This document shows, piece by piece, positions 45,762 to 63,642 of a stretch of 64,000 bases of DNA. The stretch's first letter is position 1. Each line of letters starts with the position of its first letter. The DNA lies in assembly GCA_040289475.1 (NCBI GenBank), contig PSLF01000001.1, positions 1 to 64,000 on the forward strand. The letters run 5' to 3'. Both the position numbers and the translations under genes were made by a program. The DNA is from Acidimicrobiia bacterium (lineage in GTDB: Bacteria; Actinomycetota; Acidimicrobiia; ATN3; PSLF01). Under the pieces are notes generated by a model that had not been told where the DNA came from, ran no database searches, and was given only the letters and a program-made list of their open reading frames with translations.

Positions 45762-45901
45762 GCGCCATGACCCTGGAGAATTCGTCCGAGTTCCAGAATC
45801 TCTAGCAGCCACAGGAATCGTCGAAGGGGTTCGAAGGGAATGCGACGCGGGACAGACTCCGAGTGCTTCCTCCCCAGCTTTTCCAGAGTAGTACTCCTCT
45901 C

Positions 45902-47161
45902 TCAGGCAGCTACGGAGGGATACGCCTTTATGACCTTTTCGATCGTGTAGTAAAGGCGGGAGACCGCCCCTCGATCCAGTGGATTTCCCAAGTGTCCCGC
46001 CACTACCAAAAACCACGACATTATTCCCTTAGATCGCATCCCCACTTTTCCGAAGAGATCCAGTAACTTGGGCTTCCCTATCAGATAAGCGAAGAGTTGT
46101 GCAGCTTTATAGTAGGGACCGTAAAAATTCTGCAAAGTCCGGGCATACTCCGTCTGACACAAAGCCTTACCTCTTCGCTTCGAGTCGATGATCATCTCCG
46201 AAGCTATCTCTGCCATCTCTAGGGCATATCCGATTCCCTCACCGGTAAATGCATTAATCCCCGCAGCCGCATCCCCTATTGCTAGCCAATTAGCTCCGGC
46301 CTTTGGATCAATAGCTAGTCCCATTGGCAGCTTTCCGCCTTTCGGCTTTGATATTGCATCTTCGGGTAGGACTCCCCAATCCGGACCGATCGCCTCCACA
46401 AAAGTGTCTTGTAATCGCGCTGTGTTTACCTCCTTCCAGCCTTTATAAGAAGTCAGTAATCCCACCCCCACGTTGATCGAGCCATCCCCGAGAGGGAAAA
46501 TCCACCCATAAGCAGGAAGGCGTTCGCCCCGGTGCGACAGGTCGAGCCGGGCCTCTATCCACGGATCGCGGTCTTTGGGGCTTTGGTAGTAGCCTCTCAT
46601 CGCGATCCCCATTGGATAGGCACGATCCCGCACCGCTCCCAAAGCCCTCCCTATGCGGGACAGTGATCCATCGGCGACTACCAAAAACTCTGCCTCAATC
46701 GTTCTTTGCATCAAGGACTTTTTGTCCAACACGTGGACCCCTCTCAAAACCCCGTTTACAACCAACGGGCGTGTCGCTTCGTGTCCATCTAGCACCGCGG
46801 CACCACACTCTTTCGCGAACTGCGCGATATCCGAGTCGAGCATGCTTCGAGGGGATGTGAGTCCGAAACTCGGGTATACCGGGTGATCTGGCCAAGGAAG
46901 CTCTAGACGCTGACCGTATCCGATGGCCCTTAGTCCGATGACTTTGTGGTAAGACGAAAAGCGGTGCGAAAGGCCTAAGTCGTCGAGGGCTTTCACGGCT
47001 CGGGGAGTTATGCCATCCCCGCACACCTTCTCTCGGGGATACTCAAACTTCTCGAGAAGTACCGTGTCCAATCCTGCGTATGCAAGGCGCGCCGCAGTCG
47101 CTGCGCCGCCGGGACCACCCCCGACGACTACAACATCGGCAGTGTCCGGTACGAGAGACAC
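45902..47161 (-). CDS. Geranylgeranyl reductase family FAD enzyme (MenJ-like)
   Basis: A 419-residue flavoprotein. The N-terminal Rossmann motif is VVVVGGGPGGAATAARLAYAGLDTVLLEK, followed by VCGDGITPRAV (the family PxxKxCGxG-like motif) and later WLAIGDAAAGINAFTGEGIGYALEMAEIASEMI, the second FAD signature. The family saturates isoprenoid chains of menaquinone, chlorophyll or archaeal lipids. In mycobacteria MenJ reduces one double bond of menaquinone. Position between the nuo operon and the cytochrome genes fits a menaquinone-modifying role; that is inference. The start is GTG at 47161, 17 bases after the cytochrome c gene. Confidence 0.85.
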   Translation of the reverse strand: MSLVPDTADVVVVGGGPGGAATAARLAYAGLDTVLLEKFEYPREKVCGDGITPRAVKALDDLGLSHRFSSYHKVIGLRAIGYGQRLELPWPDHPVYPSFGLTSPRSMLDSDIAQFAKECGAAVLDGHEATRPLVVNGVLRGVHVLDKKSLMQRTIEAEFLVVADGSLSRIGRALGAVRDRAYPMGIAMRGYYQSPKDRDPWIEARLDLSHRGERLPAYGWIFPLGDGSINVGVGLLTSYKGWKEVNTARLQDTFVEAIGPDWGVLPEDAISKPKGGKLPMGLAIDPKAGANWLAIGDAAAGINAFTGEGIGYALEMAEIASEMIIDSKRRGKALCQTEYARTLQNFYGPYYKAAQLFAYLIGKPKLLDLFGKVGMRSKGIMSWFLVVAGHLGNPLDRGAVSRLYYTIEKVIKAYPSVAA

Positions 47162-47178: not shown

Positions 47179-48069
47179 TTAGGAGCTACTAGCAGCGGCA
47201 GCGGCTTCGCCGGCCAGAGACCTCTCGAATTGAACAACTGCCTGGATCTCGTCGGGTGAAAGGGTGTTACCAAAGGCAGGCATGACTCCCCTAGGAGGCC
47301 TGGCATTGGCTCCCCATCCCTGCGGAAAGGCTTGATTTCCTTTGGTGACAAACTCGATCTGAGCCGCAGCGGTTGGAAAATCCTCCAACAGAGTCGTGCC
47401 GTTGTTTTTGTTGAGCGGCCTACCGACTCCGCCTTCACCGTTTGGTCCATGACACGCCGCGCAGCGCTGGGCAAAAATCTGGGCGCCGTCGGGGCCTTGC
47501 TTCTTCGTACCCCCCGCGCCAGGCGAAGGAAGTGGCTTTCCATCACATGTCTGAAGCTGGCCATTGCCTCCCACTTTGAGAGTGCCAGCCTGTCCACACT
47601 GTACGCCGTGGGAAAACTGGGTCAGGTACAGGATCGAGACAATGGGTATTATGACGAACGCTAGCACAAGCCAGCCTGGAGCTCTAGAGGACGCAACCTC
47701 TTTTATCCCCGCCGCACTCTCCACCAACTCTTCGGGCGAGTATCCACCTGCAGCGGCTAAATCCGCGCTGGGAAACGGACTCCCAGCCTCGTCCACCTGC
47801 CCGCTAACAGCGACGCCAGGCTCCGGCTTTGGCGCAGCCTGCAGAGCTGTTTCCAAAGTAGTAGCAGGTGACGCAGCAGAAGGCTCGGGGGCAGGAGCTT
47901 CTGCCGAATCAGGCCGCGCCTCTGCCGCGGCTGGCGGCTCGGAGGAAGCTGCCTCTTGAGCCTCGGGCGACTCTTCTTCTACTGGCTCGACAGACTCGCC
48001 CTTTGCAGCCTTGGCTCTCGCCATAGCCTCTCGAGATCTCTTTAAGAGGTGTTCAGGAATTTCTACCAT
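47179..48069 (-). CDS. Membrane-anchored monoheme cytochrome c with conserved N-terminal tag
   Basis: A 296-residue protein. Residues 1-130 are hydrophilic, Ala/Pro/Glu-rich and should stay in the cytoplasm. One membrane helix lies at 132-152 (GWLVLAFVIIPIVSILYLTQF). The outside part is a cytochrome c domain with CAACH at 203-207 and likely axial Met263 in GVMPAFGN. Two further cysteines (QCGQAG, QTCDG) just after the helix may form a disulfide. It should carry electrons between the bc complex and the caa3 oxidase. Its first 25 residues are almost identical to those of the cytochrome b C-terminal subunit at 61841, a striking feature discussed in the findings. Confidence 0.88.
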   Translation of the reverse strand: MVEIPEHLLKRSREAMARAKAAKGESVEPVEEESPEAQEAASSEPPAAAEARPDSAEAPAPEPSAASPATTLETALQAAPKPEPGVAVSGQVDEAGSPFPSADLAAAGGYSPEELVESAAGIKEVASSRAPGWLVLAFVIIPIVSILYLTQFSHGVQCGQAGTLKVGGNGQLQTCDGKPLPSPGAGGTKKQGPDGAQIFAQRCAACHGPNGEGGVGRPLNKNNGTTLLEDFPTAAAQIEFVTKGNQAFPQGWGANARPPRGVMPAFGNTLSPDEIQAVVQFERSLAGEAAAAASSS

Positions 48070-48129: not shown

Positions 48130-48675
48130 CTACTTAAGCGACTGAAGATAAGCGACGAGATCTGCCATTTCCTCGTCGCTCAAGTGAGCAAAAGATGGCA
48201 TCGTAGACCAGGGTCTGTCTTTGCGAGGATTACGCAAGTAATCAGCTAAGTCGTTGCGATTCTTAGCAATTTCCCTAACTCCAACTTGAGATAGGTCAGG
48301 ACCAATGCGCTGGTATCCCAAAGCTACAGGGTCGTCGTAGGCATAATCGCCCGCCGTAGACGCAGGACCTAGGTAGGCGTCCGTCAGTATGGGGCGTACT
48401 TGTTGGGTGTGACAGGAGTAGCATCCTTGGGATATGTAGATCTTGCGGCCTCTATTTTCAGGCGTACCTGCGATCGCAGCAGACTTTCTCTGCTCGGCAA
48501 CTGAAGAAGGTGTTTTATAAGAAGGGTCGGAGGAAGGACCCGCGACCGCAAGAGCCCATCCGAGTCCAATCACCAAAAGTGCCCCTATTACGATTGGGAC
48601 AATGTTCTCGTAGCGAGTCCTACTGCCAGTCCCCGAAAGTTGACTTTCTTCTTCTCGATTGCCCAAATCTTCCAT
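48130..48675 (-). CDS. FixO/CcoO-like membrane-anchored monoheme cytochrome c
   Basis: A 181-residue protein with a short charged N-terminus, one helix at about 26-46 (VPIVIGALLVIGLGWALAVAG) and one heme c domain. GRKIYISQGCYSCHTQQVRP (CYSCH at 85-89), STAGDYAYDDPVALGYQRIGPDL and a late TMP (Met159) match the soluble domain of the cbb3 oxidase subunit CcoO/FixO closely. No catalytic cbb3 subunit is present; the neighbours are caa3 genes. It probably acts as an electron carrier or accessory subunit of the oxidase. It lies 60 bases upstream of the other anchored cytochrome c. Confidence 0.87.
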   Translation of the reverse strand: MEDLGNREEESQLSGTGSRTRYENIVPIVIGALLVIGLGWALAVAGPSSDPSYKTPSSVAEQRKSAAIAGTPENRGRKIYISQGCYSCHTQQVRPILTDAYLGPASTAGDYAYDDPVALGYQRIGPDLSQVGVREIAKNRNDLADYLRNPRKDRPWSTMPSFAHLSDEEMADLVAYLQSLK

Positions 48676-48971: not shown

Positions 48972-49883
48972 TCATGGATGCCCCGACACAACCAGAGCAT
49001 CCGTATCATCCCTGGCCTCAGTCGGGGATGGGCCGGGGTGCGGCTCCCAGCGCGGATTCGTCCCTCCCCCTCCGCCGCCCCTAAAGCGAGAGGGTATGCC
49101 AGCTTCCTGTCCCTCAACTGCGTACCATCTGAAAAAGATCACAGCAAGATAGGTCCATATTACGAGTCCTCCTATCACTTTCATTACAAAGCCTGCCATC
49201 TGCTGATCCGACAAGACACTCACTCCATACAGCCTGGGCGCCTCACCATAAAAAGGAACTATGACGCCTTGCGCGAACGTAAAAAACGACGCCGGAACGG
49301 TTGGCAAAATCGATTGAACGAAGAGATAAAGCATTTGAGCCGGAGGCGATATACGCCGTATGCGAGGAGTAGGACTATAGACAGGAAGCCACATTATAAA
49401 AGCGCCTGCAATAATTAACAAATGCATGGACTGGTGAAACAAATTAGATCTACTCATGAGGTCAACCAGTAGTGGCCAGTGAGAGAGGGCTACGACCGAG
49501 TTGTAAGCGAGAGTCGCAGCGACAGGACGAGCAATCTTTCTTAACGCTTTCAGTACAGGGGTCGGTAATGCGCGCTCAATCAACCATGCGGGGGTACCCC
49601 ATAACATAAATGGTGGTACCACGAGCATTAGCAAAATGTGTTGCACCATATGAGCGGAGTAGAGGTAACCGTCCGATATGTCATGGAGTGGCCACGTAGT
49701 TGCAAGGAACGCGACCCCCACTCCGCTCAAAAACAAAACCTTCTGACTTATCGTGGCTTTCAGCCTCGATATGCTTCCGAAGTAAGCAAGGCTAAAAAAG
49801 TAAAGAAGGCATATAAGGACCCAAAAAAGAATGGTCTCTAAGTGAAGATGAAAGGGCGGCAGGCCAACACTGGGTTGCTCCAC
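48972..49883 (-). CDS. ctaG: Cytochrome c oxidase assembly protein, CtaG (caa3) family
   Basis: A 303-residue membrane protein with about seven helices. The family pattern is clear: TWPLHDISDGYLYSAHMVQHILLMLVVPPFMLWGTPAWL, SHWPLLVDLMSRSNLFHQSMHLLIIAGAFIMWLPVYSP and a late QQMAGFVMKVIGGLVIWTYLAVIFFRWY. The histidines in DIS-x-YLYSAHMVQH and LFHQSMH probably bind copper for delivery to the oxidase. A Gly/Pro-rich tail of 45 residues follows the last helix. The start is GTG at 49883, 13 bases after ctaF. Confidence 0.9.
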   Translation of the reverse strand: MEQPSVGLPPFHLHLETILFWVLICLLYFFSLAYFGSISRLKATISQKVLFLSGVGVAFLATTWPLHDISDGYLYSAHMVQHILLMLVVPPFMLWGTPAWLIERALPTPVLKALRKIARPVAATLAYNSVVALSHWPLLVDLMSRSNLFHQSMHLLIIAGAFIMWLPVYSPTPRIRRISPPAQMLYLFVQSILPTVPASFFTFAQGVIVPFYGEAPRLYGVSVLSDQQMAGFVMKVIGGLVIWTYLAVIFFRWYAVEGQEAGIPSRFRGGGGGGTNPRWEPHPGPSPTEARDDTDALVVSGHP

Positions 49884-49896
49884 CGCGAAAACCTCC

Positions 49897-50250
49897 TCAC
49901 GCTTTTATAGTACCGAACATAGCTAAAACAGCTGCGTATATCGCAATAGCCGTGACTATTCCGACCAAGAAGAGGCGTCTGAATATAGGACTGTCAAATC
50001 GCAAGTGCATGTAAAAACCTGCTACCAGAGCAAATTTTGCCGCGCTTAGCGCTAAAAGAATGGGAACAATAACCTGTCTTACTCCTTCAAAATAAAACAC
50101 CCACACCTCAAGCAGTGTAACGACGCCCAGCACTACTGCAACTAAAACGTAAATGCCGGGCCCAGGATGTGACCGCTCCCTGGAGTGACGATGGGACTCT
50201 GCTACCACAGCAGAACCCGCACCCCCAGACTGAGTTCCCAACTGCGCCAT
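49897..50250 (-). CDS. ctaF: Cytochrome c oxidase subunit IV
   Basis: A 117-residue small oxidase subunit with three helices: IYVLVAVVLGVVTLLEVWVFYF, VIVPILLALSAAKFALVAGFYMHLRFD and LFLVGIVTAIAIYAAVLAMF. The middle helix with KFALVAGFYMHLR is diagnostic of the prokaryotic COX4/caa3 subunit IV family. The first 30 residues are hydrophilic and His/Arg-rich. It is 14 bases after ctaE and belongs to the oxidase operon. Confidence 0.88.
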   Translation of the reverse strand: MAQLGTQSGGAGSAVVAESHRHSRERSHPGPGIYVLVAVVLGVVTLLEVWVFYFEGVRQVIVPILLALSAAKFALVAGFYMHLRFDSPIFRRLFLVGIVTAIAIYAAVLAMFGTIKA

Positions 50251-50264
50251 CTATAAATGCTCCC

Positions 50265-50897
50265 TCAAGGAATCAAGTAAACGACCGTAAAAATCACTAT
50301 CCACACTACATCGACAAAATGCCAGTACAAACCCACCAATTCTACTGTTTCTGCATGCTCGCTATTCAGCCGTCCCAGCAATGATGCGCCGAAAAGAGTC
50401 AAAAGCATTATGATACCCACGGTGACGTGAACACCATGGAAACCTGTCAGAACATAGAAGCTCGTCCCAAAGAGATTCGTGGAAAGCTTCAGCCCCTCGT
50501 GAACGAAGGTAGTGAACTCGTAAACCTGCCCGGAAATAAAGGTCATTCCCAAGGCAGCTGTGGTTAGCAGCCATATGCGCGTCTGACGTTGATCTCCTCG
50601 CTGAATTGCGGATAGTGCTAGTACCATTGTTAGTGAGGATGCTAGAAGAACAAACGACGAAACCGAAGTGTAGGGAATGTCATAAATCTCGTGCGGCTTT
50701 GGCCCTGTAATGCTTCGGCCCTTGTATAAAAGATACGTGGATATGAGCGCACCGAAAAGCAAGCATTCGGAACCTAAAAAAGCCCACATGGCGAGCTTTT
50801 TATTTGAAAGACCCGTATAGGTCGCTTCTTCGACAGGATGAAGCGCTTCTATTTCTTCGTCAATGTGAGTTTGAAGAGTTGCTGTGTCTTCTGTCAT
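50265..50897 (-). CDS. ctaE: Cytochrome c oxidase subunit III
   Basis: A 210-residue five-helix oxidase subunit. AMWAFLGSECLLFGALISTYLLY, GQVYEFTTFVHEGL and TGFHGVHVTVGIIMLL carry the conserved Glu and His residues of subunit III, which supports proton uptake and stability. The ATG at 50897 fits best with GGAG nine bases upstream; a TTG two codons earlier is possible. It sits six bases after ctaD. Confidence 0.95.
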   Translation of the reverse strand: MTEDTATLQTHIDEEIEALHPVEEATYTGLSNKKLAMWAFLGSECLLFGALISTYLLYKGRSITGPKPHEIYDIPYTSVSSFVLLASSLTMVLALSAIQRGDQRQTRIWLLTTAALGMTFISGQVYEFTTFVHEGLKLSTNLFGTSFYVLTGFHGVHVTVGIIMLLTLFGASLLGRLNSEHAETVELVGLYWHFVDVVWIVIFTVVYLIP

Positions 50898-50903
50898 ATC
50901 CAA

Positions 50904-52802
50904 TCACTCCGCAACAGGCTCTAACGCCCAGCCATAAAGACCTGTCACTGAAACCAATCCGCCGAATATTGCCAGTGGAATCCAATAGAGCAAACCGAAT
51001 GCAATCAGTGGTAAACCTAGCGCTGCGACAAGTGGAAAGTAAGAAGGCGACGGCATATGAATGTGCAAGTCCTGTGAGTGTCCGTGCTGGTCATCCTTTT
51101 CTGAAACCTCGAGGTTGTTTTCACCATCGTCTGCTCCCTGTACCACCCGTACCGCGCTCTCGTCTTCAGTGACAGCATACTTCTTATAGAAAAAGTCGTC
51201 TCTTGACTCGATCACAGGAATCTCTGCGAAGTTGTACTCCGGTGGCGGCGACGGAATCGTCCACTCGATTGTCCTGCCATCCCACGGATCCGAGCCAGCT
51301 TTCACCCCGCGTTTAGCCGAGTAAAGCACGTTCACTATAAAGACAAATATTGACGAAGCTATTACAAATGCTCCGACTGTCGAAACTATGTTCCATAAAT
51401 TCCAACCCATTTCTGGAGAGTATGTATAGATTCTCCGAGGCATACCTTGCAGCCCCAAAAAGTGCATAGGAAAGAAAGTTAGGTTGAACCCAATAAACTG
51501 AAGCCAAAAGTGAAGCTTACCAACCCGCTCGTTTAGTAGCCGTCCCGTAACCTTCGGCATCCAGTAATAAATCCCAGAAAATATACCAAACAGTGCTCCG
51601 CCGAAAAGAACATAGTGGAAGTGGGCAACAACATAGTAGGTGTCAGTTTGCTGAAGATCTGCTGCTGAAAGGGAGTGTGTGACCCCACTCAAGCCACCGA
51701 TTACAAACATTGCTATAAAGCCCAACGCAAACAACATTGCAGTTGTCAAACGTAGTCTTCCGCCCCATATAGTTCCGAGCCAGTTAAAGATTTTCACACC
51801 AGTTGGAACCGCAATAAGCATGGTGGAAAGCGAAAAAGCAGTCACTGCTACTGGACCCAGTCCTACGGCGAACATGTGGTGTACCCACACCCCCCAGCCG
51901 ATAAATCCGATCGCGATGCCAGAAAATATGACAAACGGATATCCAAACAGCGGCTTCTTTGAGAAAGTAGGAAGGACCTCAGACACGATTCCCATGGCCG
52001 GTAGCACCAAGATATACACTTCTGGATGACCGAACAGCCAGAAAAGGTGCTGCCAGAGCACCGGATCTCCTCCAGCTGCGACATTGAAGAAGTTTGCGCC
52101 GTACATGCGGTCAAACATCAACATAAACAAGGCCACCGCGATAACTGGCATAGCGAACAATGTCAGAAAGGCAACCACCAGCGTCATCCAAACGAATGCG
52201 GGCATCCGCATCAGAGTCATGCCAGGCGCTCGCAAGTTGATAATGGTGACTATGAAATTGACCGCGGACGCTATCGAGGCAATACCGAGGATTTGAATGC
52301 CCAGTACCCAAAAATCTATTCCATGGCCTGGCGAATAGTGGCTGGTGAGATTTGCGTATCCGAACCAACCGCCATCTGGAGCCCCACCGAAGAAGAACGA
52401 GGCGTTGAGAAACAGTCCTCCCAACAAAAACACCCAATAGCTAAATGCATTTAGTCTTGGAAACGCAACATCTCTTGCGCCAATCATCAAAGGAACGAGG
52501 TAATTAAAGAACGCGGAGGAAAGTGGCATCACAACAAGAAAAACCATAGTGGTACCGTGCATGGTGAAAAGGCGATTGTATGTTTCCGCGCTTACAACGC
52601 TAGCTTCGGGATGCGCCAGCTGAAGACGGATGATCAGAGCCTCAATCCCGCCGACGATGAAGAATAAAATCGCGGTTGCTCCATAGAGTATCCCTATCCT
52701 TTTGTGGTCGACAGTGGTCAGCCAGCCAACCAACCCTTCTTTCGTTCGAGGCCTTGAAAATATGCCGGCTGTTCTAGTTCTAGGTAATGTCGCTACAGCC
52801 AT
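50904..52802 (-). CDS. ctaD: Cytochrome c oxidase subunit I (aa3-type)
   Basis: A 632-residue catalytic subunit of the heme-copper oxidase. MHGTTMVFLVVMPL has the low-spin heme ligand. HPEVYILVLPAMG carries CuB His and the cross-linked Tyr of A-family oxidases, WGVWVHHMFAVG the CuB His pair, and YYVVAHFHYVLFGG the heme a and a3 ligands. About twelve helices are followed by a hydrophilic region and two additional helices at the C-terminus (SYFPLVAALGLPLIAFGLLYWIPLAIFGGLVSVTGLYGW), as in caa3-type subunit I with a fused subunit III-like end. It lies 107 bases after ctaC. Confidence 0.97.
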   Translation of the reverse strand: MAVATLPRTRTAGIFSRPRTKEGLVGWLTTVDHKRIGILYGATAILFFIVGGIEALIIRLQLAHPEASVVSAETYNRLFTMHGTTMVFLVVMPLSSAFFNYLVPLMIGARDVAFPRLNAFSYWVFLLGGLFLNASFFFGGAPDGGWFGYANLTSHYSPGHGIDFWVLGIQILGIASIASAVNFIVTIINLRAPGMTLMRMPAFVWMTLVVAFLTLFAMPVIAVALFMLMFDRMYGANFFNVAAGGDPVLWQHLFWLFGHPEVYILVLPAMGIVSEVLPTFSKKPLFGYPFVIFSGIAIGFIGWGVWVHHMFAVGLGPVAVTAFSLSTMLIAVPTGVKIFNWLGTIWGGRLRLTTAMLFALGFIAMFVIGGLSGVTHSLSAADLQQTDTYYVVAHFHYVLFGGALFGIFSGIYYWMPKVTGRLLNERVGKLHFWLQFIGFNLTFFPMHFLGLQGMPRRIYTYSPEMGWNLWNIVSTVGAFVIASSIFVFIVNVLYSAKRGVKAGSDPWDGRTIEWTIPSPPPEYNFAEIPVIESRDDFFYKKYAVTEDESAVRVVQGADDGENNLEVSEKDDQHGHSQDLHIHMPSPSYFPLVAALGLPLIAFGLLYWIPLAIFGGLVSVTGLYGWALEPVAE

Positions 52803-52909: not shown

Positions 52910-53998
52910 TCACTCCAGGCTTCGCAGATATGCCACTAAGCTTTCAATCTCAGCCTGCGACAATCCTAGTTTAGGCATCTTTGCACCCGGCTTGACTCCA
53001 GGGGGATTGTGCAGCCAAGCAGATAGGTTCTCGTCGTTGACTTCGAACAGCGAGCCCGCGAATGTCGAGCGGCTTGCAAAGTGGGTCAGATCGGGTCCCA
53101 CCCGACCTTGAGCATTTGTTCCTGCAATCGTGTGGCAGCCTATGCACGCGCCGGTCTCGAAAATTCTCTTTCCGTCTGCTGCCTTGGTTCCCTCAGGCGG
53201 AATCCGGGCGGGCTGTTTCTGCCTCTCTACCCATTCCCGGAAATCGGGCTCGTTCTGAACAACGGCTCTAAGACGCATGTTTGCATGTGACATGCCGCAG
53301 AACTCGGCGCATTGTCCGTAGAGAGGTTCGCTTTCTGGCTGGTCTGCCTTTATTACAATTGTGCGCTCCTGCCCAGGGAACACGTCTTGCTTTCCTGCTA
53401 ACTTCGGAATCCAAAAGCTGTGCACGACATCGACAGAGGTCAGCGTCAATTTCACTTCCCGGCCTGCTGGAATGTGGATTTCATTGGCAGTCCTAATTCC
53501 TTCCTTCACATACTCGTACTCCCACCACCACTGGTGGGCAATCACTTTGACGTCTAGGAAATCAGCTTCACGGGGAGGGCTATGTTGTTTCCAAATCAGG
53601 CGCACATTAGGAACAGCAACAACAATCAGGATCAGAAAAGGAATAATCGTCCAAACAATCTCCAAACGGGTGTGCCCATGAATTTGCTTCGGAGCCGTAC
53701 CTTCGGTCCGGGGATCTCCCTTGTCTCGAAAGCGAAACACCGCCACCAAAAGTATCGTTTGAACCACAATAAAGATGATTCCGGCTACGACAAGCACCGG
53801 AACCATAAGATTTACGATGTCTCTTGCGCCTTCGCCGGATGGCTGCATCCAGTTCTGTGGCATTCGCTCAGCGCAAGAAGTCAATCCAAGCGCCAGACCT
53901 GCCACCGACCAGAGCGGCAGCCATTTTGTTGCTTGAAGACAAGGTCTTTGGGAAATGTAGCCGCGTCTTGTAATTTTTTTCTTGCTCCCTACCATCAT
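52910..53998 (-). CDS. ctaC: Cytochrome c oxidase subunit II with fused cytochrome c (caa3)
   Basis: A 362-residue protein from the ATG at 53998; a GTG at 54034 would add 12 residues. The N-terminal signal ends in LGLTSC, a probable lipobox. Two helices follow. The CuA domain has HQWWWEYEY, VHSFWIPKL and QCAEFCGMSHANM (Cys230, Cys234, His238, Met241). The C-terminal cytochrome c domain has CIGCH at 285-289 and likely Met341. A CuA-plus-heme-c subunit II defines a caa3 oxidase, which takes electrons from cytochrome c or directly from the bc complex. It is the first cta gene of this operon part. Confidence 0.96.
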   Translation of the reverse strand: MMVGSKKKITRRGYISQRPCLQATKWLPLWSVAGLALGLTSCAERMPQNWMQPSGEGARDIVNLMVPVLVVAGIIFIVVQTILLVAVFRFRDKGDPRTEGTAPKQIHGHTRLEIVWTIIPFLILIVVAVPNVRLIWKQHSPPREADFLDVKVIAHQWWWEYEYVKEGIRTANEIHIPAGREVKLTLTSVDVVHSFWIPKLAGKQDVFPGQERTIVIKADQPESEPLYGQCAEFCGMSHANMRLRAVVQNEPDFREWVERQKQPARIPPEGTKAADGKRIFETGACIGCHTIAGTNAQGRVGPDLTHFASRSTFAGSLFEVNDENLSAWLHNPPGVKPGAKMPKLGLSQAEIESLVAYLRSLE

Positions 53999-54088
53999 CG
54001 CCACATCGCAAAAACTATCAGAAACATCCGACACATCGCCTCACACGCGCATCGGCTTGCTAGCCGAATAAATAGATTCAATTTCACC

Positions 54089-56218
54089 TCATGCGACTCG
54101 GAAAATCCCTTTCATCGTGGGATGGACATCGCAGAAAAAGTAATAGGTACCCTGTTCGGATGGCGCGACGAAACTATATGTGATGGAGCCCTGACCTTGT
54201 AACGACCCCTGAAACACCGGATTCTTCATTTGTTCATCTCTGTAGACTGAAAAATTGTGTTCGAGTGGATCTTTGTTTTCGAATGCCAAAGACACTGCAG
54301 CCCCAGCGGGTACCTCAAGCGATGACTTATCGAAAGCAATGTTCTGGGCGGTCAAAGAGACAGTCACTGATGTCCCCGCAGCTGTTTCGCCAGAAGCCAC
54401 TTCTTCAGCTGCCTTTAGCCTCCACTGGGCGAAGGCTCCTCCTCCTACAACTGCAAGCACTCCAACTATAAGAACTCCTGCTGCCACACCCGAACTGAGG
54501 CGCCGCCCAGCCGCTAGAAGCGAGGCGACACCGAGGACCACACCGGCCATAGCCAGCGCCACAGCCGTCGCGTGTGCTTTGGATCCATACCGTTGGACAG
54601 CTAGGAGAATCCGAGAAGCGGAATATACGACCACAACTACCGTGGCTGCCGAAGCCAGCGGAAGCATGACAGGCTCCACTAATCGCCGGCGGGCTTCTTC
54701 GGGCACTACCTCCGCTTGCGGGCGAACACTGGCAGCCTCCTCGGGAAGACTGACCGTCTCGACAAATCCAGGCTCTCCTCCGATGAGAGTCTTAATGCCG
54801 TTAGAGAGTGCTGAAACCGCAGACACTGCCATCGCTGCCCACCCAAGGGTTGCCATACCCGCGAACCACCTCTGGGGGCCAGCTATCGTCTCCCACGCCT
54901 TCCCCGAGGAAACCGGAAAAGCCTGTGCCGCACCCGAATTGGCCAGGAATCCCTGCACAGCACCGCCAACGATCTCGGCGATCGCTACCGTGAGGAGGCC
55001 CGCCACAAAAAGTCCGAGCTGCCAGTCGATCACCCGAGGATATCCCCAAAGGCGACCGGTAATTCTAGGCAATGCAAAGTATGCACATCCGAACAGCCAC
55101 GACCCGACTACACCGAAAAGCAAAACCCTTTCTATTCCGTACCCGGCGCCTGTCAGTCCAGTGATTTGGTTTACCGAGCGCAGGACTGAAATCGGAAGCA
55201 AAACGGTGTACAGCAATAGCAATACAACTCCAGTGGTCATCCAGCGAACAACGGGGGACGTTGCCACTTGAGGCCACGTTCCTTTGAGACTCTTGGTAAC
55301 GTTCGCGACCGTTGCGAGAAGGGGAACGGTAGCCGAGATAGCAAAAGCAATGGAAACACTTTGGTAGGCTCCAGAAGCGGGGGAGAAAACAAGACGAGCG
55401 CCGCCAGCAAGCCCCCAGAAGATTGCAAATCCCCACAACGAGAGCTGGGCAAGCCTGCGCGAGTATAGAGGGCACCCCGTCTCTTTCGGGAGCACATAGT
55501 AGGCAACACCCGTCCCCACAACAAAGAGCCAAAGCCCTAGTACGTACTGAGCAACAAAGGCTCCTTGGATCGCCTGACCAATACCCGCATAGATAGGAAG
55601 CGACCCAAGAGTGAGAGCAGCGGGGAGCCACATTAGAGCCGCCACAAAGTACCACAGAGAAGGGTAGAGCCGCTGCTCCACGCGGGTAAGAATCGACAAC
55701 ATCACGCTCACCAGGACCACGAGACTAGAGGCGGCCATCGCCAAATGCAACGGAGCCGGATACTCGAGAAGCCACAAGGGTCTTCCAAATCCCGCAGCAA
55801 CTGTCAGTGCTCCGACTCCAACCAGCCCTGCCCAGGCAAGAGCGTTGAGAGCGAGTATTTCCCCAAAGCGTAGCGGGGTTCCTGTAAGACGCGGGACTAT
55901 GTACAGAATGGCCCCGAAAGCCGCAGATGATAACCATCCGTAAACGGCGATGTTCCAAGCGACAGGAAGGAGGTTGCCGTGGGGAGCTAACTTTGCATTA
56001 GCTTCGGCTAGGCTAACAACTCCGGGAGACATCACTGAAGCAGCCCACACGAACCCCGCGAGGCATGCACCGAGAAAAAACACTCCCGACACAACGAAGT
56101 ACAGACGGGATGCGAGGTCTCCCTTTGAGCTTTCCAGCTGAGCGGAGCTCCTCGACCGTTCGTCAGTTCTCACGGGTGTGGCTTCAGTTGCAGTCTCTTG
56201 TGTGAGAGTCGCTGTCAC
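54089..56218 (-). CDS. CcoN-like membrane protein lacking metal-ligand histidines, fused to a cupredoxin
   Basis: A 709-residue protein. Residues about 35-600 have 12-14 membrane helices with the spacing of heme-copper oxidase subunit I of the cbb3/NOR group: AFGAILYIVPRLTG, AYYVLPKETGCPLYSRRLAQLSLWGFAIFW, SVNQITGLTGAG, CAYFALPRITGRLWGYPRVIDWQL. The helices should contain six metal-ligand histidines, but only His80 and His158 and one near 550 occur in the whole membrane part, none at a ligand position. Residues 617-709 are a cupredoxin with His654, Cys696, His699 and Met702 (HNFSVY, FFCDVHPTMKG), a type 1 copper site. It cannot reduce oxygen in the usual way. Electron transfer or oxidase assembly is inferred from context. 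The start is GTG. Confidence 0.8.
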   Translation of the reverse strand: MTATLTQETATEATPVRTDERSRSSAQLESSKGDLASRLYFVVSGVFFLGACLAGFVWAASVMSPGVVSLAEANAKLAPHGNLLPVAWNIAVYGWLSSAAFGAILYIVPRLTGTPLRFGEILALNALAWAGLVGVGALTVAAGFGRPLWLLEYPAPLHLAMAASSLVVLVSVMLSILTRVEQRLYPSLWYFVAALMWLPAALTLGSLPIYAGIGQAIQGAFVAQYVLGLWLFVVGTGVAYYVLPKETGCPLYSRRLAQLSLWGFAIFWGLAGGARLVFSPASGAYQSVSIAFAISATVPLLATVANVTKSLKGTWPQVATSPVVRWMTTGVVLLLLYTVLLPISVLRSVNQITGLTGAGYGIERVLLFGVVGSWLFGCAYFALPRITGRLWGYPRVIDWQLGLFVAGLLTVAIAEIVGGAVQGFLANSGAAQAFPVSSGKAWETIAGPQRWFAGMATLGWAAMAVSAVSALSNGIKTLIGGEPGFVETVSLPEEAASVRPQAEVVPEEARRRLVEPVMLPLASAATVVVVVYSASRILLAVQRYGSKAHATAVALAMAGVVLGVASLLAAGRRLSSGVAAGVLIVGVLAVVGGGAFAQWRLKAAEEVASGETAAGTSVTVSLTAQNIAFDKSSLEVPAGAAVSLAFENKDPLEHNFSVYRDEQMKNPVFQGSLQGQGSITYSFVAPSEQGTYYFFCDVHPTMKGIFRVA

Positions 56219-56351: not shown

Positions 56352-57419
56352 TCACACTCCCGCATAAGAGTGAAGGCCGGCTATCCATAAATTAACAGCG
56401 AATGTGTTGAAGATGATCGCGGCGCCCCCCACGATCGCTAACACCGCTGCGCCCTGTCCTCTCCAACCCCGTGTAGCTCGTGCATGAAGATAGGTCGCAA
56501 ATATCATCCACACGATAAATGACCAAACCTCTTTTGGATCCCAACCCCAGTAGCGCCCCCATGCTTGCTCGCCCCAGATCGCTCCTGCAATAACTCCGAG
56601 AGTCCAGATTGGAAACGCCACCATTACGAGTCGATATGCGAGCTGATCCAGCTTGCTAGAAGAAGGAAGGCGCGCCACGATTCCAGTCGCCCTGGACTCT
56701 CCCGTGCTCAAGGGAGCAACACGCCCTGCGGCAGTGGCTGTCATCGCGCCAGGGCCTTCGCGTCGTACAGAGCTCCCGCCGGTCTCCGCCAGGACTTCTT
56801 CCAACTCGCCTCGGCCCAATCTCGCCTCCCTGATCTTTTCGGAGTCTAAAACATGCTCTGGGATTTCATGGTCGATCATCAGTGGCTCTGTTTGATGTAG
56901 GCCATGCTTGTTCTCCCAGCCGAGACGGATTAGATACAGCACAGAAACGACCGATGCCAAAAGGAGAATGCCCGCCCCACTCATGACCAAGAAAACGTGG
57001 AAGAGAAGCCAGTTGGAGCGAAGTGCGGGTTGGAGTGGTCCAGGTTCTGCGTAGAGAACCCATCCCACGCCCATCCATACTGCTACGCCCGATAAAACAA
57101 ATCCCCCTATATAAGCGGCCTCGAATCTCTTGGCCACTGCTAGATAAGCAGCTACCATCACGAACGAAGAAGCCATCGAAAACTCGTACATGTTTCCCCA
57201 TGGCGGCCGGCCAGCGGCCATTGCTCTAGTAGCCAAGGCAGCTAGATGGGACGTGGCGCCGATGCTGGTCACGACAAGAGCGACCGATCTCAGCAGCTTC
57301 GAGTTCCAAGCAAGGCTTGCAAAATGAACCCCGACAGCTAGTAGGTACAAAGAGACGGCGACAACGAATGCAGTGTTAGATAGGGAGCTGAATGTCGCTT
57401 TTGGACCGCTGAGTATCAT
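56352..57419 (-). CDS. ccsA: System II cytochrome c biogenesis protein CcsA/ResC
   Basis: A 355-residue membrane protein with eight helices. The heme-handling WWD-type motif is WGRYWGWDPKEVWSFIVWMIFATYLHARATRGW. Histidines in VGVHFASLAW, SHLAALATR, LFHVFLVMSG and the late IAGLHSY are candidate heme ligands. With ResB it moves heme across the membrane and attaches it to CxxCH motifs. The loop at residues 183-240 is unusually long. It contains an EIPEH sequence at 185-189 that recalls the N-terminal tag of the two cytochrome subunits. It follows resB by 111 bases. Confidence 0.93.
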   Translation of the reverse strand: MILSGPKATFSSLSNTAFVVAVSLYLLAVGVHFASLAWNSKLLRSVALVVTSIGATSHLAALATRAMAAGRPPWGNMYEFSMASSFVMVAAYLAVAKRFEAAYIGGFVLSGVAVWMGVGWVLYAEPGPLQPALRSNWLLFHVFLVMSGAGILLLASVVSVLYLIRLGWENKHGLHQTEPLMIDHEIPEHVLDSEKIREARLGRGELEEVLAETGGSSVRREGPGAMTATAAGRVAPLSTGESRATGIVARLPSSSKLDQLAYRLVMVAFPIWTLGVIAGAIWGEQAWGRYWGWDPKEVWSFIVWMIFATYLHARATRGWRGQGAAVLAIVGGAAIIFNTFAVNLWIAGLHSYAGV

Positions 57420-57530: not shown

Positions 57531-59318
57531 CTAGCTAATGCAACAACGCTTTCCGCTTCCTGAAACAGCATCAGAGATTGCATTTACAACAGCGTCAAAC
57601 TCGGCCTCGAATAACTCTCTTCGCTGAAAGGCCTTTCCCCGAATCTCCACTGAGGCGCCTGATCGCTCACTATCTACAGGTTCTGAAGAGGTACTTGAGG
57701 GCCTGCGGGGGCTAACCTCTACCCAAATTCTTCTGCGCCACGAGTAGAGTGCAGGAAACAACGATATAAACACTGCGGCGCCGGCAACCGCAGCAACCGA
57801 GGCCCCCCAAGTGTCCGAGCGCACCTGGAAGACCGAGTATCGGCGGAGCGACAACAGCTGCAGCCGCAAACCTCCGCTAAGCTCGACAGAGTCGCCGATT
57901 TTGTCATTGGAGTGTCCTGGAAAAGTGGCAAAGGTTTGGTCGACCTCACTCAGTAGGCGCTTGTCGAGCCTGTAGACATTCTGAGGTCTGTCGAGACCTA
58001 AATCACCCCGGTACTCCGTGACAAGAACTAGGGGCCGGTTGGCCTCGTCTCCCACAGTGATGATGTCCAAGGCACCGCGCTGCGATGCTTCCGGGGCATC
58101 CGGATTCGTAGCTCTGTAAGGCACGAGCCTAAAGTCCGGAAAAAGACGCAACTCTATGCCGGCCTGCCCCCCCGACGCAGATGGAAGCTTAATTGCGCCC
58201 ACGACGCCTGTCGGAGGGCTTGGCCCCGAACTCCTGTCCTCCGCAAAAAAGAGAACTGGCCCTTCAAACAGAACCTTGTCGCCCTCGGTAACCTTTGCGT
58301 CCGCAGCCCAGCCGTACGACGCCTGATAAATCTTTACGCCGCCATAGTTCAGTGGCTTGTTCACCCGGATATAGTCCTGGCGCTTTATCCCCGATCGCTC
58401 GTCTTCCAGGGTCACAGTCGAGGTGAAGTTTTCGGGGCTTCCGTCGGGCCGATAGCGAACATCGAAATCTTCCAGAGTCAAATAAAAGTTGCGATGCGGA
58501 TTGACCAAGGATGCGAAGCGCCCTTGCGAGTAGTCATCGAAGGTCACCTGTCCCCCCTCGTACCACCTGTGTCCCTCCACGATAGCTACATATCCTTCGA
58601 ACTTGGTCGCCACTGTTAAAGCTCCAGCCAAAAACACGCCGAAGAGAGCCCAATGGAAGGCTAGGCTTCCGGCCTCTCGCCACCATCCCTTCTCGGCGAT
58701 CAATTGGAAGCGCCCGTTTTGAGGAGATACCCTCCAGCGCGCTCTAGAAAGCGCTGACCGCACTAGCGACAGCGCCTCCTCTGGATTCCTCGCGGTTTCG
58801 ATCCGCCTCGAAAAGCTCAGGCTCGGGATTGAGCCTTCAGATGGGGGTTGTTTCAACGACCGGTGATAGTCGACCAGGGCGCGCGTGCGCGGCAGTAGAC
58901 ACAAAAACAACACGAAGAGCAGCATTCCGACAAGAAAAAGGAACCACCAAGACGTAAAAACCTCGAACAGCATGAGCCGGTCGAAGACCGTTCCCCAGAA
59001 GGGATGGTCCGCTACGAATTTCGACACCCTCGAGGCAGAGTTGTTCTTTTGCGGAACCAGGCTACCAACCACCGATGCGGCTGCTACCGCGAGCAGTAGC
59101 CAGATTGCGGTTCTCATCGACCGAAGCCGAGCCCATCCCGTGTAGCGGTGCAGAGCTCTGGGCGGCTCTGGGGGCACTGTCGAAAAATCCTGCATACCGC
59201 TCCCCTCGAGACGCTTTTCCGTCCGAGTTGCGGTGCGGACCTCAACTACGCGTGAAATCCCGAGCTGGTTGAGTTTTTCGTTTCCGTTTACGTCGGTCAC
59301 GAAATCAGAAGTTGTCAT
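57531..59318 (-). CDS. resB: System II cytochrome c biogenesis protein ResB/Ccs1
   Basis: A 595-residue membrane protein. The N-terminal part has helices AIWLLLAVAAASVVGSLVPQ (family SVVGSLVPQ motif) and WWFLFLVGMLLFVLFLCLLPRTR, a third at AGSLAFHWALFGVFLAGALTV (conserved His), then a large outside domain with GYVAIVEGHRWYEGGQ and KPLNYGGVKIYQASYGW, and a last helix WGASVAAVAGAAVFISLFPAL. It forms the heme-attachment complex with CcsA. The start overlaps the stop of the ResA-like gene by four bases, supporting ATG 59318; an internal ATG at 59195 would also fit. The cytoplasmic C-terminal tail is Ser/Arg-rich. Confidence 0.92.
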   Translation of the reverse strand: MTTSDFVTDVNGNEKLNQLGISRVVEVRTATRTEKRLEGSGMQDFSTVPPEPPRALHRYTGWARLRSMRTAIWLLLAVAAASVVGSLVPQKNNSASRVSKFVADHPFWGTVFDRLMLFEVFTSWWFLFLVGMLLFVLFLCLLPRTRALVDYHRSLKQPPSEGSIPSLSFSRRIETARNPEEALSLVRSALSRARWRVSPQNGRFQLIAEKGWWREAGSLAFHWALFGVFLAGALTVATKFEGYVAIVEGHRWYEGGQVTFDDYSQGRFASLVNPHRNFYLTLEDFDVRYRPDGSPENFTSTVTLEDERSGIKRQDYIRVNKPLNYGGVKIYQASYGWAADAKVTEGDKVLFEGPVLFFAEDRSSGPSPPTGVVGAIKLPSASGGQAGIELRLFPDFRLVPYRATNPDAPEASQRGALDIITVGDEANRPLVLVTEYRGDLGLDRPQNVYRLDKRLLSEVDQTFATFPGHSNDKIGDSVELSGGLRLQLLSLRRYSVFQVRSDTWGASVAAVAGAAVFISLFPALYSWRRRIWVEVSPRRPSSTSSEPVDSERSGASVEIRGKAFQRRELFEAEFDAVVNAISDAVSGSGKRCCIS

Positions 59319-59938
59319 GCCATACCTAGCATGCAGTCGAGGTCTTGACGGGTGAGTACCCCCACAAACCTTCCTACGAGCTGTCCATCCGGGGCCACTA
59401 CAAAAGTTGCAGGAGGACTAGTAACGCCCCACGCGGCGGCTATCGTGGCTTCCTTGTCATATATATGGGGATAAGAAAGGTTGAACTCCTTGACGAACGC
59501 AAGTGCTTGAGCTCGCTCATCCCGTATGTCTATGCCGAGAAAGCTCACGGTGGCCGAAAGTTCACCCCAAGCTTTCGATAGGGTCCTAGATTCTTCGCGA
59601 CAAGGAGCACACCACGATCCCCAAAAGTTCACTACGACTGCCCGGCCCCTCATGCTATCCACGTCCACCCTGACCTGAGATGACAGGTCCTCTCCCACAG
59701 CAGCTGGGGCTCTCTTCTGCTCGAGAAATACGCGGCCTTCGCATGCAGTGGCTGTGCGGGCAGTGCACGAGGCAGCCACGAGCAGCACAACTCCATACCT
59801 CGCAAACCACGACGCTGTGGTTTTCCAATAGCTACGAAACACAGCTTTTGCGACCGAGTTCGAATGCTTTGCGGTCCCCAAGCCCGGCGTACCGCTAGAC
59901 CCTGTACAGATGAACGGAATCGATGAAAAACGTGGCAT
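59315..59938 (-). CDS. resA: ResA/TlpA-like thiol-disulfide oxidoreductase
   Basis: A 207-residue exported thioredoxin-fold protein. Active site WCAPC (Cys110, Cys113) sits in VVVNFWGSWCAPCREESRTL; the cis-Pro loop is GVTSPPATFVV. A hydrophobic stretch ending in LLVAASC (Cys58) is a probable lipoprotein signal. Since that is far from residue 1, the GTG at 59842 may be the real start instead of ATG 59938. In System II such a protein keeps apocytochrome CxxCH cysteines reduced for heme attachment. The four-base overlap with resB and the ccsA gene beyond support this role. Confidence 0.85.
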   Translation of the reverse strand: MPRFSSIPFICTGSSGTPGLGTAKHSNSVAKAVFRSYWKTTASWFARYGVVLLVAASCTARTATACEGRVFLEQKRAPAAVGEDLSSQVRVDVDSMRGRAVVVNFWGSWCAPCREESRTLSKAWGELSATVSFLGIDIRDERAQALAFVKEFNLSYPHIYDKEATIAAAWGVTSPPATFVVAPDGQLVGRFVGVLTRQDLDCMLGMA

Positions 59939-60575: not shown

Positions 60576-60983
60576 ATGCCGCAGAATGTGATCACGGGGT
60601 TGCCTGACCACTTCGGCGATTACAAGCTGAAGCTGGTCGAGCCCGACGAGGTCCAAAAGGCTGTCAGGCCCAAGCAATTTCTTCACATTGACCAAGAAGA
60701 GTGCATTTTGTGCGAGGGATGCGTCGATATCTGCCCGTGGCGCTGTATCCACATGTTGAGTACCTCTACAATCGAAGAGGCCGAGGGGGTCGAGAAACCC
60801 GGCGAGGATCCGGACGATCACGTTGTTTTTGTCGTGGACGAGGACGAGTGCACCAGATGCGCCCTTTGCGTTGACCGCTGTCCTACCGGCGTGATTATCT
60901 TGGGCAAGCTAGGGCCGGAGGCAAGAGGGGACTCGCACGAGCGAACACAAAGGCACGGATACGCCTACGGAGTTCGCTTCTAA
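60576..60983 (+). CDS. Two-cluster [4Fe-4S] ferredoxin in the bc operon
   Basis: A 135-residue protein with two classical [4Fe-4S] motifs: CILCEGCVDICP at about residue 44 and CTRCALCVDRCP at about 93. They are separated by an acidic insert of about 35 residues (IEEAEGVEKPGEDPDDH), longer than in simple bacterial ferredoxins. There is no signal or membrane segment, so it should be cytoplasmic. Linked to a bc complex it could bring electrons to or from the quinone side of cytochrome b. The ATG at 60576 is preceded by GGACCGGAG. Confidence 0.85.
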   Translation: MPQNVITGLPDHFGDYKLKLVEPDEVQKAVRPKQFLHIDQEECILCEGCVDICPWRCIHMLSTSTIEEAEGVEKPGEDPDDHVVFVVDEDECTRCALCVDRCPTGVIILGKLGPEARGDSHERTQRHGYAYGVRF

Positions 60984-61024: not shown

Positions 61025-61813
61025 TTGGCAGGGCCCAACGGAAACGGCGGCGCCGCAGGAAAGCTAAAGGAGACGGTCACCACGCTCGTAGAGCGTGTCC
61101 AGGGAAGTCAAGTCTGGACCTCTATCTTTAGGCCCGGCTCTATCTTTGCCAAGGGTTACTCGGATACGCCGAGAAACCGCTCTTACGTGATAATGAACTC
61201 TCTCGTATACCATCTGCACCCCGTCAAGGTGAAGCGTCACGGAGTGAAGGTGTCTTACACTCTGTGTCTGGGTGGGCTGTCTTTCTTTCTTTTTATCGTT
61301 CTGACCGTGACCGGAATTTTCTTGATGTTTGTCTATCGGCCTACAGAAGCAAATGCGTACCCCGACATGCAAGCGATGATGACCTCTGTAGCATTCGGGA
61401 CGCTGGTTCGCAATATGCACCGGTGGGGAGCACACCTCATGGTATTGAGCGTTTTCTTACACATGGCTAGGGTGTTCTACCATGGAGCCTACAAGCCTCC
61501 ACGCGAGTTCAACTGGGTTGTAGGCGTCAACCTCTTAGTCCTCACCTTACTTTTGTCGTTCACTGGTTACTTACTGCCCTGGGATCAGCTGAGCTTATGG
61601 GCCGTGACCGTGGGGACCAACATGATGGGTTATACGCCAGTTTTTGGACGCGAAGTACGGTTTGTACTATTGGGATCTACAGAAGTGTCTGCAAACACAC
61701 TTCTGCGCTGGTACGTGTTGCACGTGATCATGTTTCCGTTTGTGACCGCCATTTTTATGGGCATCCACTTCTGGCGAGTACGAAAGGATGGAGGAATCTC
61801 GGGACCCCTTTGA
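61025..61813 (+). CDS. qcrB: Cytochrome b, N-terminal (cytochrome b6-like) subunit
   Basis: A 262-residue four-helix cytochrome b that binds both b hemes. RNMHRWGAHLMVLSVFLHMARVFYHGAYKPPREFNW supplies the first His pair, 14 apart. VLHVIMFPFVTAIFMGIHFWRVRKDGGISGPL supplies the second. FTGYLLPWDQLSLWAVTVGTNM is the Qo-side cd region. The sequence ends just as chloroplast b6 does (GISGPL), so cytochrome b is split. The start is TTG at 61025, following CAGGAGGTACGAG. The first 45 residues are a hydrophilic extension. It oxidises menaquinol with the Rieske protein encoded downstream. Confidence 0.95.
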   Translation: MAGPNGNGGAAGKLKETVTTLVERVQGSQVWTSIFRPGSIFAKGYSDTPRNRSYVIMNSLVYHLHPVKVKRHGVKVSYTLCLGGLSFFLFIVLTVTGIFLMFVYRPTEANAYPDMQAMMTSVAFGTLVRNMHRWGAHLMVLSVFLHMARVFYHGAYKPPREFNWVVGVNLLVLTLLLSFTGYLLPWDQLSLWAVTVGTNMMGYTPVFGREVRFVLLGSTEVSANTLLRWYVLHVIMFPFVTAIFMGIHFWRVRKDGGISGPL

Positions 61814-61840: not shown

Positions 61841-62662
61841 ATGGTCGAAATTCCAGAGCATCTACTACAGCGCTCTAGGGAGGCGATGGCTAGGGCCAAG
61901 GCCAAAAAGGGTGAGGCCCAACCAGAATCTGGCCCGGAGCCGGCAGAGGCTAAAGCTGAAGCCACACCGCCCCAGCACTCGGAGGACGAGGCGGGTACGG
62001 TAGCTACACCCCAGAAACCTGCGACAGAGGCGGCTCCTGCTCCGGCTCCTGCTCCTGCTCCGGCTGCGGCTCCTGCTCCTGCTCCTGCTGCTACTGCCAC
62101 AGCCGTAGCTACCCGCCCTACTCCCTCAAAGCCTAAAACTGCGTCAGAGGCGAAGCCGCCGCAGAAGACACATACTCACCGGCTGCTAACCGTAGTCAAG
62201 TCAGGGTCCATCCAGCAGACGAAACCGGAAGCCGTCGACAAAGTAAACGTGTGGCCACACCTCCTTGCGATCGAGTTTTTAGCAGCGTTAGCGTGTCTCG
62301 TATTTCTCGTGGTATTCAGCATCTTTGTAAATGCCCCGCTCTTGGCGGAGGCCAATTACAACCTAACGCCCAACCCCTCAAAGGCCCCGTGGTACTTCCT
62401 GGGCTTGCAGGAGCTGCTCGCATACTTCGACCCGATGGTTGCTGGGGTCACAATTCCGGGAATGGGCATTTTTTGGCTGATGGTCACACCATACATAGAC
62501 AAGAATCCCAGTACCGACCCCAACCACCGGAAATTCGCGATAGCGCTATTCACGTATTTCCTAATGTTCTGGGCCGTCCTCGTGATCATCGGTTGCTTCT
62601 TTAGAGGTCCCGGGTACAACTTTGTCTTCCCCTGGACACAAGGACTGTTCTTCGAGCTATGA
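61841..62662 (+). CDS. Cytochrome b, C-terminal (subunit IV-like) with N-terminal tag
   Basis: A 273-residue protein. Residues 1-120 are hydrophilic, with an Ala/Pro dipeptide-rich run near 66-85. The rest has three helices and the subunit IV pattern: ANYNLTPNPSKAPWYFLGLQELLAYFDPMVAG (PWYF stands at the PEWY quinol-site position), then TPYIDKNPSTDPNHRKFA and two C-terminal helices. It completes cytochrome b. Its N-terminus, MVEIPEHLL then RSREAMARAKA, is nearly the same as that of the cytochrome c at 47179-48069. The ATG lies 27 bases after the b6-like gene, and the stop overlaps the Rieske start in ATGA. Confidence 0.92.
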   Translation: MVEIPEHLLQRSREAMARAKAKKGEAQPESGPEPAEAKAEATPPQHSEDEAGTVATPQKPATEAAPAPAPAPAPAAAPAPAPAATATAVATRPTPSKPKTASEAKPPQKTHTHRLLTVVKSGSIQQTKPEAVDKVNVWPHLLAIEFLAALACLVFLVVFSIFVNAPLLAEANYNLTPNPSKAPWYFLGLQELLAYFDPMVAGVTIPGMGIFWLMVTPYIDKNPSTDPNHRKFAIALFTYFLMFWAVLVIIGCFFRGPGYNFVFPWTQGLFFEL

Positions 62663-63642
62663 CACCCCAACAAGTTCTCGTCATCGCTATACCCGTGATA
62701 GGGGCAGTATTCGTTCTTTTCGTAGTGCTCGTTGCTACTTCCCGACGACGCCGCGCGGATGAACGAGGGAGTGAAGATCTCACCGAGCGCTTTGCTGCCG
62801 CGCTTGATGCGGTACCCGGAGGATTTGTCGAGGAAGAGGATGCGGCGTCTCGCACATCTGTTCCCTCCTCAAGCTCGGAGACGCCACCAGGTCAGGGGCC
62901 AAAAGAAAAAGTGACACCAATGGCAACTGCTCTCCTGACAGAAGCACCTTCCCCTCCGCTTCAATTCGGAGAGAAGCCTTCTGGGGACGGACACAAGTCG
63001 ACCGAAGTCGAAATCGTCGAGCCGAAGATCAAGCTAAGACCCATTCAGCCAGCTGCTGACGAAGAAGTCGAGGGCATGACGAGGCGGCAGGTACTCAACC
63101 GAGGTATTCTGCTAACCCTGGGTGCATCGCTCACATCGTTCGGTGGGGCAGTCATAGCCTTCTTGTGGCCCCGGCTATCCGGCGGCTTTGGATCCGTGAT
63201 CGCTGCCGGCAACATGGACGAGATAAAAAGCACTATCAAGGCAAACCGGGAGCCCTTTTACAGTGCAGCCGGCCGCTTCTACCTGATGACGTATGAGACG
63301 AATCTTGACGACGCCACCGGAGAAAGTATCTATCCCAAAGCCTTTACTGATTACAAACAGGCTGGACTGATCGCCATGTACCAGAAGTGCCCGCACTTGG
63401 GGTGTAAGGTTCCGTGGTGTAAGTCGTCTCAGTGGTTCGAGTGTCCTTGCCATGGATCGAAGTACAACGCAGCAGGCGAGTGGCAAGGTGGGCCTGCTCC
63501 GAGAGGAATGTGGCACTTCCCTATAAAGGTTCAGGGCGGAACGGTAATGGTTGACACAGGCAAGCAGATCACCGGCGCCCCAAAGGGTACCAACACGCCG
63601 GTCGATCCGTTGCCCAAGGGTCCTCACTGTGTCGGGATCTAG
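62659..63642 (+). CDS. qcrA: Rieske iron-sulfur protein of the bc complex
   Basis: A 327-residue protein. It begins with an additional helix (VLVIAIPVIGAVFVLFVVLVATS), a hydrophilic stretch to about 130, then MTRRQVLNRGILLTLGASLTSFGGAVIAFLWP, a twin-arginine-like anchor. The Rieske domain has CPHLGC and CPCHGS: Cys244, His246, Cys262 and His265 bind the [2Fe-2S] cluster, and Cys249/Cys264 form the disulfide. QKCPHLGCKVPWC and MWHFPI are typical of menaquinol complexes. It passes electrons from menaquinol to cytochrome c. ATG 62659 overlaps the previous stop by four bases. Confidence 0.96.
   Translation: MTPQQVLVIAIPVIGAVFVLFVVLVATSRRRRADERGSEDLTERFAAALDAVPGGFVEEEDAASRTSVPSSSSETPPGQGPKEKVTPMATALLTEAPSPPLQFGEKPSGDGHKSTEVEIVEPKIKLRPIQPAADEEVEGMTRRQVLNRGILLTLGASLTSFGGAVIAFLWPRLSGGFGSVIAAGNMDEIKSTIKANREPFYSAAGRFYLMTYETNLDDATGESIYPKAFTDYKQAGLIAMYQKCPHLGCKVPWCKSSQWFECPCHGSKYNAAGEWQGGPAPRGMWHFPIKVQGGTVMVDTGKQITGAPKGTNTPVDPLPKGPHCVGI

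Follow-up and report, generated by a model that had tools for sequence, protein, structure and literature searches.

The window analysed here, a 64,000-nucleotide stretch of Acidimicrobiia DNA, carries at 54089..56218 on the minus strand a genuine open reading frame with a GTG start, whose 709-residue product combines a CcoN-like domain with a cupredoxin domain, the two being separated by three transmembrane helices. The gene lies between ResB/ResC and an intact caa3 set, as the original prediction had described, and its surroundings comprise the following features (basis of assignment in brackets):

47179..48069 (-): CcoP-like mono-heme cytochrome c with the shared N-terminal motif (domain models, motif)
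47989..48063 (-): N-terminal motif VEIPEHLLKRSREAMARAKAAKGE on the CcoP-like cytochrome
48130..48675 (-): CcoO/FixO-like mono-heme cytochrome c, the usual (fusion) partner of heme-less CcoN (PF02433, E 7e-24)
48972..49883 (-): CtaG, caa3 assembly (domain model)
49897..50250 (-): CoxD, subunit IV (domain model)
50265..50903 (-): CoxC (domain model)
50904..52802 (-): CoxA, aa3 subunit I (TIGR02891 above cut-off)
52910..54034 (-): CoxB with C-terminal cytochrome c, caa3 subunit II (domain models)
54089..56218 (-): heme-less CcoN / three-helix / cupredoxin fusion protein, 709 aa (open reading frame, domain models, predicted structure)
54092..54385 (-): type 1 copper (cupredoxin) domain, residues ~612-709, ligands H654, C696, H699 and M702 (models, fold)
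54404..54706 (-): three-transmembrane region, residues ~505-605 (homologous to the transmembrane part of a separate three-helix cupredoxin of aa3 operons)
54749..56131 (-): CcoN-like domain, residues ~30-490, 12 predicted transmembrane helices, heme/CuB ligands and cross-link Tyr absent (ligand columns, AlphaFold model)
56352..57419 (-): ResC/CcsA, cytochrome c maturation (sequence; same order in G001)
57531..59318 (-): ResB, cytochrome c maturation (sequence; neighbourhood)
59315..59938 (-): TlpA/ResA-like thioredoxin-fold protein (sequence; neighbourhood)
60576..60983 (+): two-cluster ferredoxin-like subunit of the divergent bc operon (sequence; conserved divergent neighbour)
61025..61813 (+): cytochrome b N-terminal subunit (conserved divergent neighbour)
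61841..62662 (+): cytochrome b C-terminal subunit of the bc complex (relatives match PF00032; neighbourhood)
61847..61909 (+): the same N-terminal motif on this subunit
62659..63642 (+): Rieske protein (neighbourhood, relatives)
~63658-64623 (G000:C1, past the window end): diheme cytochrome c, after the Rieske gene

By sequence and predicted fold, residues ~36-480 of the fusion protein are CcoN, subunit I of cbb3 oxidases. PF00115 matched with an E value of 2.3e-27 (the COX1/CcoN models cover residues ~38-431), TIGR00780 ccoN with 1.9e-26, its 93 bits falling short of the equivalog cut-off of 583 bits, and the CcoN of PDB entry 9g6b with 2e-12. The best structural match of the AlphaFold model was cbb3 CcoN (3mk7; target-normalised TM-score 0.88), ahead of NorB (target TM-score 0.82-0.84) and of aa3/ba3 subunits; the alignment behind this model contained true CcoN rows, so that the homology is carried independently by the sequence evidence. 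Superposition and profile matches bear out the CcoN/NOR-type helix order first read from the letters of the DNA, with CcoN the closer of the two, and the protein has the homology and the 12-helix fold of a C-family heme-copper oxidase subunit I. Together with CoxA it accounts for all heme-copper-type subunit I genes of the window genome.

The metal ligands of this fold are missing. At the six positions that are histidine in CcoN-type proteins with all ligands, the window protein has A, Q, A, R, I and R: A replaces the low-spin heme histidine and Q a CuB histidine (AQYVLG), A and R replace the HH pair of CuB (GGAR), and I and R the HxH of hemes b3 and b (YGIERV). The cross-link tyrosine of the C family is W, and residues 36-480 hold just two histidines, 80 and 158. 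The C-family ligands of the low-spin heme (two), heme b3 (one) and CuB (three) are all absent. The replacement of the six histidines, as originally claimed, is thereby confirmed at the ligand columns, and the tyrosine is lost as well. These columns were read in a subset of the family matches, two of which (L180 and L186) were left out because the added rows aligned badly; the six histidines and the tyrosine were missing from every heme-less member with readable columns, the ligands being absent from 21 of the 21 members first extracted (one truncated ahead of the first column), and all seven residues, the six histidines and the tyrosine, were kept in 14 of 14 CcoN comparators. In the heme-less family His made up at most 42% of any column, Met at most 35% and Cys at most 10%; CcoN, by comparison, has seven columns that are 100% His.

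Relatives within the Acidimicrobiia were found with P0001; a four-row alignment used as query for a scan of genome contigs matched mostly ligand-bearing CcoN. The family model matched 157 of the 395 Acidimicrobiia genomes searched (E <= 1e-8), the other 238 giving no match, and ten matches lay elsewhere in the phylum, five of them ligand-less and five ligand-bearing; heme-less CcoN occurs in Acidimicrobiia and in other actinobacterial classes, in soil and marine bacteria. A branch with 100/100 support split heme-less from ligand-bearing CcoN, and in a CoxA-rooted tree the heme-less proteins formed a clade (99/100), in which the window protein sits on a long branch. Across six pairs from one small-genome family dN/dS was 0.06-0.13, values that are rough because some pairs have high dS; the reading frames are intact across many genomes and kept even in 1-Mb genomes, and heme-less CcoN is under purifying selection. 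One small genome (G016) has the heme-less CcoN/bc locus in two copies (L158 and L078). As judged from its sequences, the clade descends from CcoN and no longer binds heme or CuB, and with that binding lost it is predicted to be unable to reduce oxygen. To our knowledge, bound metals are the defining feature of the known heme-copper superfamily. No published description of a heme-less CcoN was found in the open-access PMC papers searched; the single CuB-ligand change of Nitrospina (PMC3578206) is a separate case from full ligand loss.

A bc operon was divergent from heme-less CcoN in all 32 loci with usable upstream sequence. Ligand-bearing CcoN was checked at three loci in the same phylum, one of which had 3.5 kb upstream only, and no bc genes were found on that side. 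Between gene centres, the distance from heme-less CcoN to the bc genes was mostly 1-3 kb; it is 5.6 kb in the window and reaches ~8.7 kb in other classes. CcoO, the partner expected in a cbb3 complex, was present, separate or fused, in 33 of 36 heme-less loci, the exceptions being L076, which lacks it though the sequence is present, and L082 and L185, which are close to contig ends. Usually the gene is followed by, or fused to, this CcoO-type cytochrome c, accompanied by a CcoP-like one; the order in G001, the nearest relative and the sole one of the same order in the comparison, is TlpA-ResB-ResC-[hlCcoN~CcoO]-CcoP-GGR-NuoA. The window has five caa3 genes, CoxB-A-C-D-CtaG, separating heme-less CcoN from CcoO, and it is the only genome among the family loci read in which caa3 genes are close to heme-less CcoN. 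CcoS (FixS) was near two of three ligand-bearing CcoN genes; nothing above cut-off was found in nine heme-less genomes, one of which (G007) gave a sub-threshold match. A geranylgeranyl-reductase-like flavoprotein (45902-47161), which perhaps acts on menaquinone, recurs near the module in many relatives, and a lipoprotein-like reading frame (44706-46016) overlaps the end of its gene. In a survey of acid-mine metagenome-assembled genomes, several actinobacterial ones were credited with both caa3 and cbb3 oxidases (PMC8357290).

The C-terminal half has a different affinity. Because the full-length AlphaFold model was poor past residue ~490, the cupredoxin was folded alone from a single sequence, giving a model of moderate confidence (pLDDT 66) with auracyanin as its best structural match. 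Cupredoxin_1 matched residues 612-706 above the Pfam cut-off (E 7e-9), and all four ligands listed above are in place; the complete type 1 copper domain announced by the original prediction stands, with a predicted cupredoxin fold and a His-Cys-His-Met set that point to a type 1 copper protein. Residues ~505-709 aligned over 192 columns with a three-helix cupredoxin (hhalign probability 98, E 1.7e-13) whose gene immediately follows CtaG in nine aa3 loci. These loci belong to class-mates in which heme-less CcoN was not matched, and on this alignment the window protein is a fusion linking a heme-less CcoN module with the three-helix cupredoxin module of aa3 operons. Since the cupredoxin part taken alone most resembles domains in L173 and the cupredoxins that are fused to CoxB, the C-terminal half may be composite. 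While ligand loss proved to be family-wide, the fused cupredoxin was seen in the window protein only among the members read, one order-level relative being compared. CoxB-cupredoxin fusions are present in relatives, G001 among them, and in two genomes of another class (G400 and G428; compare L173 and L174) a protein encoded downstream of CcoO, roughly where CcoP would stand, contains cupredoxin domains. Such fusions and replacements suggest, short of proof, that domains with blue copper and with heme c can stand in for each other along a single electron path. At L133, L129 and L132, the C-terminus of CoxB (aa3 subunit II) is a cupredoxin in place of the cytochrome c.

An N-terminal motif of ~32 residues (P-x2-L-x2-RS-x2-A-x-A...G...VL), often repeated, is common to the cytochrome b subunit and to the CcoO-like and CcoP-like proteins (loci include L066, L070, L078 and L150-L154), and also occurs on a membrane protein, A6, adjoining aa3 genes in five genomes. 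The motif region had no Pfam match over cut-off in the motif proteins scanned; the motif may be a docking element. A6 was considered as a relative of the window C-terminus and showed no clear relation, its transmembrane part matching the three-helix cupredoxin family weakly. The motif was also seen near the C-terminus of a 2-oxoacid:ferredoxin oxidoreductase-like subunit, so identified by sequence (L155 ~3334-3420, G056), and in a short reading frame at L156.

Taken together, the fold, the family-wide ligand loss, the single clade, the purifying selection, the linkage to bc and CcoO genes and the homology to the aa3-operon cupredoxin lead us to consider it reasonably probable that heme-less CcoN has no catalytic role and is the scaffold of an electron relay that is linked to bc and leads towards the aa3 oxidase. 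The membrane bundle would have survived to hold its old partners, the CcoO- and CcoP-type c-heme domains, and in the window genome would also carry the fused type 1 copper domain; these domains would lie on the outer membrane face beside the cytochrome bc complex. Electrons would pass from Rieske/diheme cytochrome c to the CcoO and CcoP hemes and/or the cupredoxin, and on to CuA or the cytochrome c of an aa3/caa3 oxidase. Here we infer the relay role itself, that the protein physically assembles with the oxidase and the bc complex, which way the electrons flow, and the copper loading. A scaffold presenting a cupredoxin as electron carrier had been proposed from the sequence, and the family data favour that part of the proposal; the suggested tie to caa3 fares less well, the conserved partners being the bc operon and the CcoO/CcoP-type cytochromes c. 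The strongest point against a relay is that the bc operon already encodes a diheme cytochrome c, which may make a further relay superfluous or leave it only a branch to serve; in known actinobacterial supercomplexes a diheme cytochrome c suffices for transfer to the oxidase (PMC8361435). The CcoO-less locus L076, the single sighting of the cupredoxin fusion and the share of the class with no match to heme-less CcoN also count against it.

Alternatively, the protein could be an assembly factor, a membrane chaperone for cytochrome c or copper insertion whose cupredoxin delivers copper to the CuA site of caa3. Its place in the window between cytochrome c maturation genes and caa3 invites this reading, and ResB/ResC are also near heme-less CcoN in G001 and G418; we nevertheless think it unlikely, as neither ResB/ResC nor caa3 was found nearby in most family loci, the other members read are without a fused cupredoxin, the partners seen throughout are instead the bc operon and proteins with heme c, and a four-ligand type 1 copper site is typical of electron carriers. 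A little less likely again is a quinone-binding or proton/ion-conducting subunit of the bc complex, in which the CcoN fold was kept for a new cofactor-free function and the c-hemes are secondary: the constant proximity to bc genes and the retained fold agree with it, but the membrane part showed no polar pocket that is conserved, and most of its best-conserved columns are Gly, Pro and Trp.

Two further readings were rejected. A catalytic oxidase in which other residues bind heme or CuB might be argued from the small-genome family f7, which keeps a histidine near the first CuB position (STHIYVG) that another gap placement could bring into the CuB column; with no His, Met or Cys column conserved in the family and CcoS not found above cut-off, it is highly improbable. 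Next to no weight is left for a decaying pseudogene, for which the lost ligands and the long branch of the window protein might speak, since it is contradicted by the selection and conservation data (intact reading frames in many genomes, the low dN/dS and retention in 1-Mb genomes).

Extending the scaffold and relay reading to the phylum, we tentatively propose, as a possibility with somewhat less than even chances, that in Actinomycetota a cofactor-free cbb3 descendant has evolved into an obligate module, both structural and electron-relaying, that joins the bc complex to aa3 oxidase; c-heme and blue-copper domains would be interchangeable on it, and its partners would share an N-terminal motif for docking. 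If true, the relay module would be a further way to link complexes III and IV.

The module can be compared with several known systems. With the CcoN of cbb3 (C-family) oxidases (3mk7, 8smr) it shares the fold, the helix order, homology over ~400 residues and CcoO (and CcoP-like) partners, whereas it lacks the six metal ligands, the cross-link tyrosine and a CcoS match above cut-off, its gene adjoins bc genes, and the window protein is fused to three transmembrane helices and a cupredoxin. The closest solved fold to that cupredoxin is auracyanin (6kol, 2aan), which differs from the window domain in that the latter is fused to a 12-helix scaffold and a three-helix segment. The actinobacterial bcc-aa3 supercomplex with diheme QcrC (6hwh, 6adq; PMC8361435) likewise combines an aa3 oxidase with a bc complex that has a diheme cytochrome c, but no oxidase-derived scaffold or CcoO/CcoP relay is described there. 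Finally, the CIII-cbb3 supercomplex of R. capsulatus with membrane-anchored cytochrome cy (6xkw) also sets a bc complex beside a CcoN/CcoO/CcoP module; its CcoN is catalytic, whereas heme-less CcoN would just pass electrons onward.
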